The notes under the pieces: generated by a model
Seen by the model: the letters and a program-made list of their open reading frames with translations, nothing else
Databases searched by the model: none
What the model was told of the DNA's origin: nothing
Part shown: positions 13,199 through 25,879 of the stretch, piece by piece
Layout: each line of letters opens with the position of its first letter
How positions within the stretch are numbered: the stretch's first letter is position 1
From: Deltaproteobacteria bacterium
Lineage (GTDB): Bacteria > Desulfobacterota > Desulfobulbia > Desulfobulbales > Desulfurivibrionaceae
DNA: 64,000 nucleotides
Assembly: GCA_013349285.1 (NCBI GenBank)
Contig: DUZU01000003.1
Location: forward strand, 1 to 64,000
Reading direction: 5' to 3'
Position numbers and translations under genes: made by a program

Positions 13199-16100
13199 TC
13201 AAGTCAACAATGGCTGAAGAGCTTCGCCAAGAGCGTCAACCTTCTTCTTCAGTACCACGGCAACATCCTGGTCACCGGCCCTGACCTGAAGCTTCTCTAA
13301 CCCCTCGGCCATGGTGGCCAACTGATCCAGACCCATAACCCGAAGAGAGCCTTTGATAGTATGCGCCGCGATGCTCACCGCGGTCATATCCCCAACCTCA
13401 AGGGCCTCTCTGCCGACGATCAATTGTTCGGCCAAAGATTGCTTGGCCACTAAAATCAACTTGTCTATTTTCTCATCATCCATCTTATATCGGTTACGGA
13501 TAAAGCCCCGGATACACTCATAATCAACAGTTGCGCAACCTGAAAAATTTTGGTCGGAGTATACGCCCCTGCTTTTTGCTGCGGCCTGATCTTCCGCCCG
13601 GACATATTCCGCCAACAGTTTAAAGACCTGTTCTGGATAAAACGGCTTTGAGATATAGTCATTCATGCCGACCGCAACACATTTATCCCGGTCACCACTC
13701 ATGGCATGTGCCGTCATGGCGATTATCGGAACATGATCATACTTTTTCTCCTGGCGAATCATTCTGGTCGCCTCGAAACCATCCATCTCCGGCATCTGCA
13801 CATCCATGAACACCAGATCAAAACTTTCGTTCATCTTCTCCAAGGCTTCCCGTCCATCATTGGCCACCTCGACGGCAACGCCACCGTCTTCCAGCACCTC
13901 CTTGGCCAACATCTGGTTAAACGGATTATCCTCAACCAAAAGCACCCGACACCCCTTAAATAACACCGGAGGTTTTTCAGCCTCCTCGGCCGCCTCTTTC
14001 GCGCCGCCCGACTCCGGGTTCAACACCGATCTGATATTATCGAACAAAATCGCCTGATTCACCGGCTTATGCAAGAAGGCGCTCACCCCAACCTGTCGAG
14101 CCCGATACTCTTCAAACTCTTTGCCGAAACCGGTCAAAATTATAATCGGGGTATCGGCCAGCGCCAGGTCGGCTTTTATCTTTTGGGTGGTACAGATGCC
14201 GTCATGCTCCGGCATCAACAGATCCAGAATCACCAGATCATAAAAAACAGACTGGGCGGCCCTTTCCTGCAACAACTTCAACGCCTCACTGGGCAGAGTT
14301 ACCGAATCCACCTCGAAACCGCTTAACTCCAACATCTCCTGCAGCAGGTTCACCAGGGCGATATCATCATCCACCACCAGTACTTTTTTCCCTGAAAACT
14401 CCCCGGTTCGAGAGTAATAATTCTCCATGGGCTGAGCCCCGAAGGGAACGATAAATGAAAAAACACTGCCCTTGCCCGGCCTGCTTTCAACTTTAATATC
14501 ATCCCCCCCCATCATCCCGACCAACTTCCGGCAGATGGAAAGGCCGAGCCCTGTCCCGCCATAGGCCCTGGTTATGGAATCATCAGCTTGAATAAAGGGG
14601 CTGAAAATATTTTCTATCTTATCCTGCTTGATCCCGATCCCGGTATCACTCACGGCAAATTGCAGCATAACCCGGCCCGAGGATTTGCCCTGATTGGTTA
14701 TATCCAGAGAAACCTCGCCCTGCTCGGTAAACTTAATCGCATTGCTGAGCAGGTTGGTGAGGATCTGCCCGAGACGGAGCGGATCGCCGGTTAACCGATC
14801 CGGCACGTCGCTCAAGGAATCAACGGCTAAATGCAAACCCTTCTCCTTGGCCTTGACCTTGAACATATCCACAATATTAGAGAGGATGTCATGCAGACTG
14901 AAATCAATCTCTTCGATAATCAGCTTGTTGGATTCGATTTTTGAAAAATCAAGAATATCGTTGATAAGCGCGAGCAACGAATTACTCGAAGCCTTAACAA
15001 CCTCCAGATACTCCTTGACCTTGGGCGAAATCGCCCGCTGCAGCGCCAGGCTGGTCATGCCGATGATCGCATTCATCGGGGTTCTGATCTCGTGACTCAT
15101 GTTGGCCAAAAAGGCGCTCTTTGCCCGATTGGCCGACTCGGCCGCCTCTTTGGCGAACTGAAGGTCCTCGGCGGCCTGCTTTGCCAAGCTCACATCATGA
15201 AAGGTCTGCATGGCCCCGATGATCCTGCCGTCGAGATTAAACAACGGCGCGGCCGAATAAAAAAGCCACCTCCCTTTTTCGCCAAAATCCGGGAAAAATA
15301 ACTCCCCTTCATAAACTCCTTCCTGAATCGTGGATTTAAGCAGATCCCAGCCACAGACCGCACGGATGGCCTCATCATCAAGGCTATCCAGCAGACAATC
15401 AGCCAGGGTAAGCTTGCTTTCGGCGTAAAATGCCTGCCATTGATTTCTGGTGCCGATCATCTCGGCGGCCGCAAGACCTGTCAACTTTTCACAAGCCTTG
15501 TTCCAGAAGATGACGGAATGATTGTTGTCGATCACAAAGGTGGGAATGGAACTTCCCTCGACTATCTGGGACAGTTTTTTCTCATTTTCCCGCAGAGATC
15601 TTTCAAGCAGGGCACGTTCGTTGATCTCGGCAAGAAGCTCGCCATGTTCTCGGGCAAGGGTTAATTCGATCTTTTGCAACAAAAACCACAACAGGACGAA
15701 CAAAACCCCGCCGACCAGGATCGCACTCACCATGTTACGCACAAACAGCGTCCGCATGGTTGCCAGTTTGCCCGTAATATTGTGCAGAACAACGATTTCC
15801 CCCAATTCCTGACCGGCGACATCCTTTAACGGGAGAAAACTTCCCCGATAGAACTGATCCTCCAGGGGCAGGTCAAAGAAAAACAACTTATGGGCATTAA
15901 TGTCGTACTGATGACTATGGCCCATGAGTTGCTTTAATATTTGGCCAGGAACCCCGGCCAGGGAATAATCGAAAACTACATAATCATCAAAAGCATCCCA
16001 ATCCCCGGAACGGCCCAACATGGCCAAACCTTCTTCCCACTTGGCTTGATCCAGAAATTTTTTATTGATGGCAAACAAAACTTCGGCGCCCAGGGCTGTT

Positions 16101-16660
16101 TTAAGTTTCGGACAGAGATAGTCCAACTCCTCGCCCAACTCCAGATAACCTGCCAACCGACCATTTATCAGCCAGGGCACCACCACTCGCAGGGTAAAGG
16201 TGCCGAAGGGCCCGAGCTCCATGCCATAAGAAGTTTTTTGCCCGGCCGCTGCCTCCTGCATCGTATAGCGGTCGATCTCATCGCCAAAGCGGGGGGGATT
16301 ATGGACCCGTAAAAAATTAACGCTGTCCAGGTCATGGAAATAAAAATGGGTGACCCGGAATTTTTCCTTGATTCCATTAAAGATCGGAGTGCTGTGGCGC
16401 AACAGCGCTTGCCGGTCCCGGGCCAGCCAGGCCGCCTGCAACGCTTTATCCTCCTCCAAAAAGTGGATAAGCCCGACCAGCACCCGGCTTTCTTTTTCCA
16501 GCTCCCGCTGAAAGATCTGCTCCACCCCCTTGACCCGGGCCAGAACCTCTTCATCCAATATTTTTCCTAAACCATGCTGGCTAATAACAAGAGAGACGAC
16601 CAGCAACATGGCCAAAGCTATGACCAGTGAGATAAGTATCGGTTTTTTTACTGATTTCAT
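13199..16660 (-). CDS. Large membrane hybrid kinase with two receivers and HPt (BarA-like)
   Basis: An 1153-aa phosphorelay protein. The first membrane segment is at residues 7-27 and the second near 308-330, enclosing a large periplasmic Cache-type sensor containing FYFHDLDSVNFLRVHNPPRFG and SYGMELGPFGTFTLRVVVP; this resembles the double-Cache type 3 group, judged by eye. Then come a PAS domain (about 370-480), HisKA with His in NMSHEIRTPMN, HATPase (DTGIGI, GGTGLGLSI), receiver 1 (Asp in LVILDLLMPEHDG), receiver 2 (Asp in LVFMDVQMPEMDG) and a C-terminal HPt domain with His in AAHTIKGSLRVMG. All relay residues are present, so it can pass phosphate from His to Asp to His and on to an external receiver. 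It is monocistronic. Confidence 0.93.
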   Translation of the reverse strand: MKSVKKPILISLVIALAMLLVVSLVISQHGLGKILDEEVLARVKGVEQIFQRELEKESRVLVGLIHFLEEDKALQAAWLARDRQALLRHSTPIFNGIKEKFRVTHFYFHDLDSVNFLRVHNPPRFGDEIDRYTMQEAAAGQKTSYGMELGPFGTFTLRVVVPWLINGRLAGYLELGEELDYLCPKLKTALGAEVLFAINKKFLDQAKWEEGLAMLGRSGDWDAFDDYVVFDYSLAGVPGQILKQLMGHSHQYDINAHKLFFFDLPLEDQFYRGSFLPLKDVAGQELGEIVVLHNITGKLATMRTLFVRNMVSAILVGGVLFVLLWFLLQKIELTLAREHGELLAEINERALLERSLRENEKKLSQIVEGSSIPTFVIDNNHSVIFWNKACEKLTGLAAAEMIGTRNQWQAFYAESKLTLADCLLDSLDDEAIRAVCGWDLLKSTIQEGVYEGELFFPDFGEKGRWLFYSAAPLFNLDGRIIGAMQTFHDVSLAKQAAEDLQFAKEAAESANRAKSAFLANMSHEIRTPMNAIIGMTSLALQRAISPKVKEYLEVVKASSNSLLALINDILDFSKIESNKLIIEEIDFSLHDILSNIVDMFKVKAKEKGLHLAVDSLSDVPDRLTGDPLRLGQILTNLLSNAIKFTEQGEVSLDITNQGKSSGRVMLQFAVSDTGIGIKQDKIENIFSPFIQADDSITRAYGGTGLGLSICRKLVGMMGGDDIKVESRPGKGSVFSFIVPFGAQPMENYYSRTGEFSGKKVLVVDDDIALVNLLQEMLELSGFEVDSVTLPSEALKLLQERAAQSVFYDLVILDLLMPEHDGICTTQKIKADLALADTPIIILTGFGKEFEEYRARQVGVSAFLHKPVNQAILFDNIRSVLNPESGGAKEAAEEAEKPPVLFKGCRVLLVEDNPFNQMLAKEVLEDGGVAVEVANDGREALEKMNESFDLVFMDVQMPEMDGFEATRMIRQEKKYDHVPIIAMTAHAMSGDRDKCVAVGMNDYISKPFYPEQVFKLLAEYVRAEDQAAAKSRGVYSDQNFSGCATVDYECIRGFIRNRYKMDDEKIDKLILVAKQSLAEQLIVGREALEVGDMTAVSIAAHTIKGSLRVMGLDQLATMAEGLEKLQVRAGDQDVAVVLKKKVDALGEALQPLLT

Positions 16661-17022: not shown

Positions 17023-17265
17023 CTAGCCCTTTTTTATGTAAAACCTGAAAAAACCTGCATCTTCCTTGTCACCGAGAAAGGTATGCCCGGCTCGCTGACA
17101 CCATCCCGGCAAATCGTTTTTCGAGCCGGGGTCTGTTCCTAAAATTTCCAGAATCTGGCCCGAGTTGATCGACTCTATCGCTTTCTTGGTTCGCAACAGG
17201 GGCATGGGACAACTCAAGCCTTTAGCATCGAGGGTTTGATCCGGTTTTATGTTGTCTAACTCCAT
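17023..17265 (-). CDS. TusA-family sulfurtransferase / sulfur carrier
   Basis: An 80-aa protein with the TusA fold signature: LDAKGLSCPMPLLRTKKAI holds the CPxP motif whose Cys (about residue 18) carries persulfide sulfur. TusA-like proteins deliver sulfur for tRNA thiolation, molybdenum cofactor or dissimilatory sulfur metabolism. The C-terminal half contains a second Cys (LPGWCQRAGHTFLG), a pattern common in stand-alone TusA-like proteins of sulfur-metabolising bacteria. The ATG at 17265 is preferred to the track start at 17298 because GGAGGAG sits just upstream of it. It is a single-gene unit with its own terminator. No tus or dsr partner lies nearby, so the pathway cannot be assigned. Confidence 0.9.
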   Translation of the reverse strand: MELDNIKPDQTLDAKGLSCPMPLLRTKKAIESINSGQILEILGTDPGSKNDLPGWCQRAGHTFLGDKEDAGFFRFYIKKG

Positions 17266-17347
17266 TGGGCTCCTCCTTTTTTTTTGCAGGGTGAACAAGA
17301 GTCGGGCTTAAAATACTACAATGAAAAAAACTCCCACTCCAAAATCA

Positions 17348-17950
17348 TTACTTTAGCGAATCATTATCCTTCAACCCCGGATAAAGCCTGTTAACGCAAT
17401 CGGGACAGATACTGTGGGTAAATTCCGCCTCGGAATGATCGCGAATATATTCTTCAATCTGGCTCCAGTAGCCCTGGTCATCCCTGATTTTTTTACAGGA
17501 AGAGCAGATCGGGAGAAAACCGCTGAGAATTTTCACCTCGGCCTGGGCCTTTTGCAACTCTTGGGTGCGTTCCCGGACCATCGCTTCCAGTTGTTCCCGG
17601 TGCCGTTGAATCTCAATATGCACCTTGCGTGAGCGATTAAAATAGATACTGAAGGCAAAAATCACGATAAAGGTCGCGGTATTTATCGCCCCGCTAAAAG
17701 GGGCCAAGGCCTGCCAGACCGAAGTCATCCCCTCCATCAGCATAGCCTGTTTGACCAGATGCCCCACGGAACGGGAAAAGGCAAACATCACAAAAGACAA
17801 GGTCATGAGAAACAAATAAAAGCGGAAGGTATCATCGGCTTTTTTCCGCATCCACCTGAAGGCATACTGACTGCACTTAAGGGCGAGCAGAACAATAAGA
17901 ACGGAACCCAAGATATCAATCCATACCACCGGCTGCCAGCTGACTATCAT
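17348..17950 (-). CDS. Three-helix membrane protein with coiled coil and C-terminal four-Cys domain
   Basis: A 200-aa protein of unnamed function. Transmembrane helices lie at about 6-25, 42-62 and 84-104. A charged coiled coil of the kind that precedes kinase or PAS modules (HREQLEAMVRERTQELQKA) leads to a C-terminal domain of about 50 residues: LPICSSCKKIRDDQGYW, then EAEFTHSICPDCV. The two CxxC pairs look like a zinc or iron site. I know this tail from the ends of many delta-proteobacterial signalling proteins, but not a function for it. The start is the ATG at 17950, which overlaps the upstream stop as ATGA and has GGGAGG upstream; the track start at 17965 lies inside the neighbour. A protein with the same layout occurs at 25319-25849. 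Confidence 0.75.
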   Translation of the reverse strand: MIVSWQPVVWIDILGSVLIVLLALKCSQYAFRWMRKKADDTFRFYLFLMTLSFVMFAFSRSVGHLVKQAMLMEGMTSVWQALAPFSGAINTATFIVIFAFSIYFNRSRKVHIEIQRHREQLEAMVRERTQELQKAQAEVKILSGFLPICSSCKKIRDDQGYWSQIEEYIRDHSEAEFTHSICPDCVNRLYPGLKDNDSLK

Positions 17951-18414
17951 TTGTTGGCCTCCCATCGACGCAAGGCGAGCAACAAGAACAAAAAGGCCGG
18001 AACAAGGAGAAGATGATCAAGACGGGTCAAATAAAAGAATAGATCAAAAGTGTTGGCAAGATGATAACCCGAGACATTACCATCCACCTTGACGAATTTA
18101 TGGTCGACGACAAACTCACGCAGCAGGTGGCCGACAAAGGTCTGCAAATTCCAGCCCAACAGCAACCAGAGGAAAATCTTGAATTCCTTCCAGCCGGGCT
18201 CGACCAAGTTATGGTGGCGGATCCGGACCAGAATCGTGATCATGGCTACAACAAAAAGAATATGCCCGATCTGATGCGAGACCAACCCCTCGGCGCCGCC
18301 GTGCGACTGAACCGCCCATATCGGGGAAGGGATAACCAATAGCAAGCCGACCAGCCAGACAACCGCAACAAAAACCCTTCTTAACGGCATAACCTGCATT
18401 TTATGTTTCAACAT
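17947..18414 (-). CDS. His-rich small membrane protein, unrecognised
   Basis: A 155-aa membrane protein with about four hydrophobic segments: an N-terminal signal or anchor (VFVAVVWLVGLLLVIP), then GHILFVVAMITILV, FKIFLWLLLGWNLQTFVGHLL, and LDHLLLVPAFLFLLLAL. Many His residues sit near membrane borders (SHQIGHIL, RIRHHN, FVGHLL, RLDHLL), which could bind haem or a metal, although this is only a suggestion. GAGGGG precedes the ATG at 18414. Its stop overlaps the start of the four-Cys-domain protein by ATGA, so the two are translationally coupled and probably work together. I do not recognise a family. Confidence 0.75.
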   Translation of the reverse strand: MLKHKMQVMPLRRVFVAVVWLVGLLLVIPSPIWAVQSHGGAEGLVSHQIGHILFVVAMITILVRIRHHNLVEPGWKEFKIFLWLLLGWNLQTFVGHLLREFVVDHKFVKVDGNVSGYHLANTFDLFFYLTRLDHLLLVPAFLFLLLALRRWEANK

Positions 18415-18485: not shown

Positions 18486-19703
18486 TTAAGACCTGTTCCA
18501 GCCAACCGCCCCCATACGATCCCGACTGAGCACAATAAAAATTATGCTTACGGCGACAAACAGCATGACAAACAGACCGCTCCCCACAAATGACGCCCCA
18601 TAACCCCACTGCCCATTGAGCACCCCGGCAAAGACTGCGGCCATAAAGGTCGCAAGGGTGCGGACCCCATAGACCAACCCGGAGTTTCCCCCCAAACGCT
18701 GGGCAGGGAAAAGCAGCGCCACCAACACGCCCAGCTCCAGCAAAGCCACCGCATCGCCCAAGGTATGCAACAGGCGGATAATAAGCAGGCTCCAAAAATC
18801 AAAGGCCCAGGCGGTCATAACCTGAAAAAAACCGGAAACGCCGAGGCCGACCAGAAAGAAAAGAAACACCGACTGCCGCTTATCGTGGAGCCGCCCGATA
18901 AAGGGTACCGTCAAGGCCATCCACAACCCCAGCCCGGCAAAAACCAGGCCGATCATCCGGGGGGCAAAGCCAAGCTTTTCTTGGAGCAGCAAGGAAAACG
19001 AGGTCTGCTCAACCCCAAAATGGGTGCCCAACACAAAAACACAGGCAATGAGCAACAGCGGCTTAAAACCAGCCACGTCTTCCCCATATTTTTTAAAAGA
19101 AAAAACAATGGGCTCATAATCATCCAAAAAAAAGGCCAGGCCAAAGATCAGCAGCGTTCCAAGCAAAGCCAAACCAAAAAGCAGAGACGGCCGTTGCTCG
19201 ACCACCAGGCCGCCGACCAAGGGCCCCAGCCCGAAACCAAGATAGGTGCTCAGTTGATAAAAAGCCACCCGCCGCCCCCGTTCGATGTTACCGAAATGCT
19301 TGAGATAAAGCGACTCACTAACCACAATGAGCGCGGCGCTGCCCACCCCGCCCAGAAAAAGAACGGGCAACAACAACCCAAAGGTACGCACCTTGAGCAG
19401 GGCCGCAAAATATATCCCGTACAGCAGCGCCCCCGACATCATGGTTCTTTTCGGAGAAAAGAAATCGGAAAAAAGGCCCAGAGGCAACATCAACGCCATG
19501 GAAGAAAGGGCGAAAAAGCCGATCACCGAGCCCACCTGCAGATCGCTGACCCCATAGCCCTTGAGCACCACCGGCAGATAGGCCAACACCATCCAATGGA
19601 CAAAATAGAGTAAAAAACGAATAGCGACGGAAAGCAGAATCTGTCTGTTCAGATACCCGCCGGACGAAAAGGAACCCGCCGTATCTTGATCTTTTAATAT
19701 CAT
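18486..19703 (-). CDS. MFS transporter
   Basis: A 405-aa major facilitator with about 12 transmembrane helices. The loop between helices 2 and 3 contains LGLFSDFFSPKRTMM, the family's conserved GxxxDxxxRR-type motif, and the loop after helix 8 has GRLHDKRQSVF. The substrate is unknown; the general look is of a drug or metabolite exporter. The ATG at 19703 is chosen because AGGA lies 6 nt upstream; the track start at 19790 is a TTG giving an extra hydrophobic segment without ribosome-binding support. It is transcribed divergently from the DUF3617 gene. Confidence 0.85.
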   Translation of the reverse strand: MILKDQDTAGSFSSGGYLNRQILLSVAIRFLLYFVHWMVLAYLPVVLKGYGVSDLQVGSVIGFFALSSMALMLPLGLFSDFFSPKRTMMSGALLYGIYFAALLKVRTFGLLLPVLFLGGVGSAALIVVSESLYLKHFGNIERGRRVAFYQLSTYLGFGLGPLVGGLVVEQRPSLLFGLALLGTLLIFGLAFFLDDYEPIVFSFKKYGEDVAGFKPLLLIACVFVLGTHFGVEQTSFSLLLQEKLGFAPRMIGLVFAGLGLWMALTVPFIGRLHDKRQSVFLFFLVGLGVSGFFQVMTAWAFDFWSLLIIRLLHTLGDAVALLELGVLVALLFPAQRLGGNSGLVYGVRTLATFMAAVFAGVLNGQWGYGASFVGSGLFVMLFVAVSIIFIVLSRDRMGAVGWNRS

Positions 19704-24252: not shown

Positions 24253-24684
24253 ATGAAAAAAACACTGTTTGCCATCACCATCGGTTGCGCCACCGCCTTA
24301 ACCACCATGCTGACGGCCCCCACCAGCGCCGGGGCCGCGGGCTTGACCGCACCGACCCAACAGATCACGATTCAGGGCAAAAAGCCGGCCCGTTTCAACC
24401 ATGGCACCCATACCGCCTTGGGCCTTGAATGCGGCGCCTGCCATCACGACCAGGAGCATCAGCCCCGCAACGCCGAGGCCATTGGCGCCATGGCCCCGGA
24501 GCAACTCAAATGCGCCGGCTGCCACAATAAAGATTTTAAAAACAGCAAGCTGCAGAAACCGAGCCAGATTTTCCACGCCAAGTGCAAGGAATGCCATAAC
24601 GCAGGCTACAACGACAAAAAAGGGCCGACCAAGTGCGCGGGCTGCCACCTCGCCAAGGGCAAACAGGCCATCGAAGGCTGCTAA
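24253..24684 (+). CDS. Periplasmic tetrahaem cytochrome c3/c7-type protein
   Basis: A 143-aa secreted cytochrome. A Sec signal peptide ends near SAGAAG. Four CxxCH haem-binding motifs are seen: CGACH, CAGCH, CKECH and CAGCH. The sequence FNHGTHTALGLECGACHHDQ gives extra His residues for bis-His ligation, as in class III cytochromes. Such proteins carry electrons between periplasmic hydrogenases or formate dehydrogenases and membrane complexes in sulfate- and sulfur-reducing bacteria. AGGAGG lies upstream of the ATG. It is a single gene; no oxidoreductase partner is adjacent. Four haems in about 115 mature residues is the normal size for a cytochrome c3. Confidence 0.93.
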   Translation: MKKTLFAITIGCATALTTMLTAPTSAGAAGLTAPTQQITIQGKKPARFNHGTHTALGLECGACHHDQEHQPRNAEAIGAMAPEQLKCAGCHNKDFKNSKLQKPSQIFHAKCKECHNAGYNDKKGPTKCAGCHLAKGKQAIEGC

Positions 24685-25318: not shown

Positions 25319-25849
25319 CTATCTTTTGCCGCGCCGTTTAGCCCTGACCTTTTCCAGACAGTCCGGACAGATGCCGTGGGAGAATTTCGCGTCGGTCCGT
25401 TGGGAAATATAGGTTTCAATATCTTTCCAGTCCGCCGGGTCGGCACGATCGGCGCTCTGTTGCCTTACCTTCTTGCACTCCATGCAGATCGGCACCAGTC
25501 CCTGAATGGTCTGCTGGATCTCGTCGATCATCCGGGCGTGGAGGCCGATGCCCAACGAGACGAAAATCGCCCCGAGCAAAAAAATCAGGCTCACCGCAAA
25601 AACGCCGACACTGGCCTGGCCGAGGAGCACATTATAGGCCACGCCGACATAGCCCACCGAAAAGAAAACCATCAATAAGCGATTAACATGCAGCGACCAG
25701 ACCACGTAACGCTTGCTGCGCTCGGCAATAAGCGGGGTAGCCCGAAAAAGCCCCTGCATCTTAAGGATACTGACGCCGATAATAACCGCCCCGGCAAAAA
25801 TCAGCAGCACACCCAGCTGGGCATGCCACTCCAGAGTCTGCCAACCCAT
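25319..25849 (-). CDS. Small membrane protein with C-terminal four-Cys domain (second copy of the type)
   Basis: A 176-aa protein with three or four transmembrane helices (about 10-30, 50-72, 76-100) and a short linker to the same C-terminal domain seen at 17348: LVPICMECKKVRQQ, then DAKFSHGICPDCLEKV. The two CxxC pairs are conserved, but an ADRADPADW insertion lengthens the loop between them. Outside this tail the two proteins share only the general layout. The ATG at 25849 with AGAGG upstream is preferred to the TTG start in the track. It is followed (75 bp) by the Cys-rich gene on the same strand. Function unknown; the tail suggests redox or metal sensing at the membrane. Confidence 0.72.
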   Translation of the reverse strand: MGWQTLEWHAQLGVLLIFAGAVIIGVSILKMQGLFRATPLIAERSKRYVVWSLHVNRLLMVFFSVGYVGVAYNVLLGQASVGVFAVSLIFLLGAIFVSLGIGLHARMIDEIQQTIQGLVPICMECKKVRQQSADRADPADWKDIETYISQRTDAKFSHGICPDCLEKVRAKRRGKR

Positions 25850-25879
25850 AACCAACCTCTTCCCATAAAATATTACCCC

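Follow-up and report, generated by a model that had tools for sequence, protein, structure and literature searches.

A conserved four-cysteine tail at the C terminus of bacterial sensor proteins: a putative output module

How does a membrane sensor pass on its signal when its coiled coil leads to no catalytic domain? The question is raised by P0001, encoded in the window (the whole 64,000-nucleotide stretch of DNA analysed here; features in Table 1). As the preliminary description had proposed, the open reading frame reads as a three-helix membrane protein with a kinase-like coiled coil. Computation on the protein sequence gave three hydrophobic segments, the coiled coil contains the kinase-type motif VRERTQEL, and searches of Pfam and NCBIfam with P0001 and with a second protein of the window, P0002, gave no match to HisKA/DHp with a phosphoacceptor His or to HATPase_c. 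The only NCBIfam matches of the coiled-coil region were weak ones to the linkers of TorS, SiaA and NarQ. The protein ends in a module of about 50 residues with four cysteines in the pattern CxxC-x29-CxxC; from the first to the last of them it reads C149SSC152KKIRDDQGYWSQIEEYIRDHSEAEFTHSIC182PDC185. Since only 4 of 20,000 shuffles of P0001 produced CxxC-x25-35-CxxC, this motif is not a product of chance.

Table 1. Positions of P0001, its parts, its neighbours and P0002 in the window
Feature	Position	Strand	Remarks
TusA-family sulfur-carrier gene	17023..17298	-	Directly downstream of P0001
P0001, 3-TM membrane sensor domain, coiled coil and four-Cys tail	17348..17950	-	200 aa
Putative four-Cys output tail of P0001	17372..17548	-	AQAEVKILSGFLPICSSCKKIRDD...THSICPDCVNRLYPGL; C149/C152/C182/C185
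Signalling coiled coil of P0001	17525..17635	-	Residues 106-142
Membrane sensor domain of P0001	17639..17929	-	Residues 8-104
P0003, His-rich membrane partner	17947..18414	-	Probable signal peptide; ATGA overlap with P0001
P0002, second 3-TM protein with divergent tail	25319..25855	-

Beyond the TusA-family gene, on the same strand as P0001, lies the gene for a 1153-residue kinase with receiver-like domains (13199-16660, minus strand), which could be a partner of the tail. Elsewhere in the window, a small secreted protein with several CxxCH motifs (24253-24684, plus strand) resembles class III cytochrome c.

P0002 had been described as sharing the design of P0001. The resemblance is real in its three transmembrane segments and its tail, but it goes no further: the membrane part is unlike that of P0001, there is no long coiled coil, the tail follows a transmembrane helix, and six residues are inserted between the CxxC pairs. 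A paralogue of P0002 (G000:C43) and a relative in genome G129 both carry the tail. The genome of the window holds 11 copies of the tail, which come after MASE3, PAS, REC and small membrane domains. A degenerate copy also occurs as a free-standing protein of 76 residues (L016; G000:C42, about 19021-19179, plus strand).

The cysteines, on whose conservation the preliminary description had staked its proposal, are conserved. All four are kept, as CxxC-x(28-35)-CxxC, in 193 of 195 distinct tails (spacing 29 in 184), a count that is mildly circular in that the search profile itself contains the cysteines; among 45 representatives below 75% identity they are invariant by selection, and 193/195 is the fair figure. 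In these representatives a W is also invariant; 97% have an H three residues ahead of the third Cys, and an R and an E are each kept in 93%. The two tails that have lost cysteines (L230 and L233) lack the second Cys in one case and the first and fourth in the other; they are possibly degenerate members that could be used as natural controls.

We also asked whether the tail belongs to a described family. Sequence profile searches returned nothing above threshold in Pfam or NCBIfam, no PDB relative was found by sequence or by Foldseek fold search of two models, and the isolated tail gave weak, sub-threshold matches to several zinc ribbons. Neither the tail nor its motif is described in the titles and abstracts searched, subscription journals and other domain databases lying outside that scope. 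The earlier statement that the tail has no assigned role agrees with the absence of matches in Pfam, NCBIfam and PDB, and on its sequence the tail is most aptly treated as a new, so far unnamed family of C-terminal signalling output module. Resemblances to HNH nucleases and to DksA/TraR were considered and dropped, as in each case the motif layout differs and there is no Pfam match. AlphaFold models of the tail reached a pLDDT of only 69-70; at that confidence the chain is predicted to run strand, knuckle, helix, strand, knuckle, helix, the second CxxC standing where a helix begins. A zinc ribbon or treble clef would agree with the spacing of the Cys and with the helix predicted after CPDC, a comparison made at this pLDDT and with no PDB match, so the models give only a hint of a fold of treble-clef or ribbon type. 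The zinc ribbon of FlgZ / DUF164 likewise has two CxxC motifs, is thought to contact proteins or nucleic acids, and is needed for RpoN stability (PMC3372290); unlike the module studied here, it is not the tail of a sensor, and there is no sequence match.

The preliminary description had placed the tail in one lineage, a restriction that the survey removes. It was found in 187 of the 395 genomes sampled from the source phylum and in 55 of 149 from Acidobacteriota; the Acidobacteriota scan counted as many as 19 copies in one genome. The first genome scan confirmed at least 478 relatives, of which the best 80 were kept; among the matches listed, record titles named Deltaproteobacteria, Chloroflexi, Bacteroidales, KSB1, Marinimicrobia, Nitrospirae, Acidobacteria, Hydrogenedentota, WOR-3, Planctomycetes-type and other genomes, and one archaeal bin. 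These records are metagenome-assembled genomes, and single cases may be misbinned. All 13 genomes picked from such records hold the tail, several in more than one copy. Beyond the source phylum and Acidobacteriota, the tail is present in about ten other phyla. Plasmids almost lack it, and none was found in the phages searched; it therefore does not look like part of a mobile element.

That the tail recurs at the end of signalling proteins, as first noticed in this lineage, is borne out by the domains that precede it. It is C-terminal, at most 62 residues from the stop, in 194 of 195 distinct tails. In the best 80 of at least 478 tail proteins, the input domains are PAS (at least 23), REC (18), Cache, HAMP, MASE3, CHASE4, a phosphonate-binding domain, propeller and TPR, many of them unrelated to one another. 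Acidobacteriota examples, read from sequence without a family scan, are propeller-, Cache- and TPR-TM-type proteins and one REC protein. A pattern scan found no kinase, GGDEF or HD-GYP motif in 189 of the 195 tail ORFs and, in each of the other six, one isolated HATPase-like motif and nothing else. Genes for HATPase (13 of 114) and REC (15 of 114) are frequent near tail genes; beyond two-component genes, no dedicated partner gene recurs among these neighbours. The sole N-terminal tail found (L282; 3310-4509, minus strand) is followed by two GAF-like domains, named from sequence by eye, and by no enzymatic output. This arrangement is not what an output model with a strictly C-terminal tail would lead one to expect.

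The His-rich neighbour of P0001 bears on what the tail replaces. The ATGA coupling noted at the outset is exact, with the P0001 start codon overlapping the P0003 stop codon. The P0001 membrane domain was found in 29 of 198 genomes and P0003 in 32, including all 29. A P0003 homologue stands directly upstream of a P0001-type membrane domain in all 30 loci examined, which makes it the genuine partner it had been taken for. Within P0003, H47, H51 and H96 are invariant, while H38 is kept in 29 and H134 in 28 of the 30 loci; in the relatives of the membrane domain that were compared, S59, H64 (its one invariant His) and G87 are invariant and R60 and N90 nearly so. By this sequence conservation, P0003 and the P0001 membrane domain are a conserved two-gene sensor, and a haem or metal site common to both may reasonably be inferred. 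This unnamed two-gene, His-rich sensor of histidine kinases (relatives L129-L157) occurs in roughly 15% of the genomes of the phylum.

Of 29 scanned proteins with the P0001 membrane domain, 26 carry HisKA and HATPase_c, two carry the tail (in the window and in G129), and one has a degenerate end. Since the same membrane domain bears either a kinase or the tail, the two are alternative outputs, an exchange that rests on two tail-bearing loci. Several kinase versions have an NtrC-type regulator directly downstream, identified by motif and clear at L270, L276, L279 and L280; unlike these, neither tail locus has one. P0003 is thus a partner of the membrane sensor domain and not of the tail, and the pair usually serves a histidine kinase. 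For P0003 and the membrane part of P0001, with their five His and H64, the earlier idea of a metal or redox sensor pair is still plausible. It does not extend to the tail, which looks like an output because it sits where the kinase would be and is held in heptad phase with the sensor.

This phasing was seen in two sets of linkers. Between the PAS 'DIT' motif and the first Cys, 38 of 42 linkers have a distance of 35 residues and 41 of 42 a multiple of 7, one of the 41 (distance 14) being a chance match within the tail itself; after clustering of the linkers at 60% identity, 14 of 15 remain in phase. As the PAS-tail linkers share ancestry, the 38 cases at 35 are not independent, and the varied RTxEL linkers weigh more: in 36 of 39, the distance from RTxEL to the first Cys is 21, 28, 42 or 49. 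P0001 itself has 21 residues, or three heptads, between R128 and C149. Because linkers of different length keep the same phase, these distances indicate that the tail must hold a fixed angle on a parallel coiled coil. The outputs of PAS kinases are likewise held at a set angle by their parallel coiled coil, and a passive appendage would not need such phasing. Tail proteins resemble sensor histidine kinases (HisKA/HATPase_c) in their inputs, in ERTxEL or DIT linkers with heptad periodicity and, at the P0001 locus, in the membrane sensor and its small partner gene. They differ in having neither HisKA nor HATPase and in ending in the four-Cys module.

Could the tail have a structural role, as a cap by which the coiled coil is stabilised or dimerised, with signalling by hetero-association with other kinases? 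A coiled coil does precede the tail in the phased cases, kinase genes are often near tail genes, and REC-PAS proteins with no classical output are already known. We consider this unlikely, as a cap would need neither the roughly 53% identity of tails across phyla nor the invariant W and strongly conserved H, R and E, and tails of the P0002 type come after a transmembrane helix with no long coiled coil.

The many unrelated inputs, the C-terminal position, the exchange with a kinase and the fixed heptad register together lead us to favour, with some confidence, the explanation that the tail acts as a small output (transmitter) module at the C terminus, in the place of a catalytic domain such as a histidine kinase or diguanylate cyclase. 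It is most likely a metal-stabilised docking finger. In the mechanism we envisage, a sensor dimer would place its two tails next to each other where the parallel coiled coil ends. An input, which might be REC phosphorylation, a ligand of a PAS or Cache domain, or some change in the His sites of P0003 and P0001, would shift the coiled coil and so reposition two putative Zn-stabilised Cys4 fingers, a movement that would expose or hide a conserved face (R, W, E and H) docking on a partner protein. For the window, P0003 and the P0001 membrane domain would be the sensor, of metal, haem or redox state, and the tail the output.

Tail identities were compared within and between genomes. Identity averages 56.5% within genomes versus 53.5% between them, and the within-genome excess, larger than in all 2000 label shuffles, is largely due to one genome, G412. 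Genome-specific co-tuning of tails was not found in this comparison, except in G412, which has near-duplicate tails. These values argue against a lineage-specific partner and speak for a partner highly conserved across phyla or for an intrinsic activity. A more ambitious version of the docking model, which we put forward tentatively and regard as somewhat doubtful, is that the tail defines an unnamed output class, spread over about ten or more phyla, in which a putative Cys4 finger pair contacts one highly conserved partner; as part of the same tentative reading, signalling by such contact might run parallel to kinases and second-messenger enzymes.

A finger could also bind nucleic acid, the carriers then being minimal transcription (or RNA) regulators. 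The Cys4 motif invites this comparison, REC-tail proteins look like response regulators with an output, and HalOD2 (PF18547), an archaeal REC output domain with two CxxC motifs that, like the tail, is a Cys4 output domain at a response-regulator C terminus, is predicted to bind DNA or RNA (PMC5847659). Unlike HalOD2, the tail has no Pfam match, a spacing of 29, many inputs and many phyla. TackOD1 (PF18551) is another Cys-rich, REC-associated output of unknown function, but it is 200 residues long, has 11 Cys, occurs in TACK archaea and does not match the tail; at E<=10, both families were absent from the Pfam matches of P0001 and of the isolated tail. No DNA-binding family was matched by the tail, its core is slightly acidic (mean net charge -1.25 over 183 tails), and many carriers are integral membrane proteins. 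For the last two reasons we prefer protein docking to DNA binding, and nucleic-acid binding seems to us improbable, about as much so as the structural cap. Slightly less likely still is a thiol switch, in which the tail would sense redox state or metal and so modulate the attached protein. Its four Cys are conserved, it is frequent in anaerobic lineages, and one N-terminal copy lies beside GAF domains, but it stands behind a phased coiled coil, in 194 of 195 cases nothing that it could regulate comes after it, it replaces a kinase and is not added to one, and it conserves W, H, R and E beyond the needs of such a switch.

An output module of this kind is probably an overlooked route by which sensors relay signals. 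The groups that carry the tail hold many 'sensors without an output', the PAS-only, REC-only and Cache-only proteins; should the tail serve as their output, it would reveal a sizeable part of bacterial signalling that has so far been hidden. About half of the genomes of the source phylum carry the tail, some in 10-19 copies. As the same membrane sensor occurs with either a kinase or the tail, outputs would be exchangeable at a known coiled-coil register.
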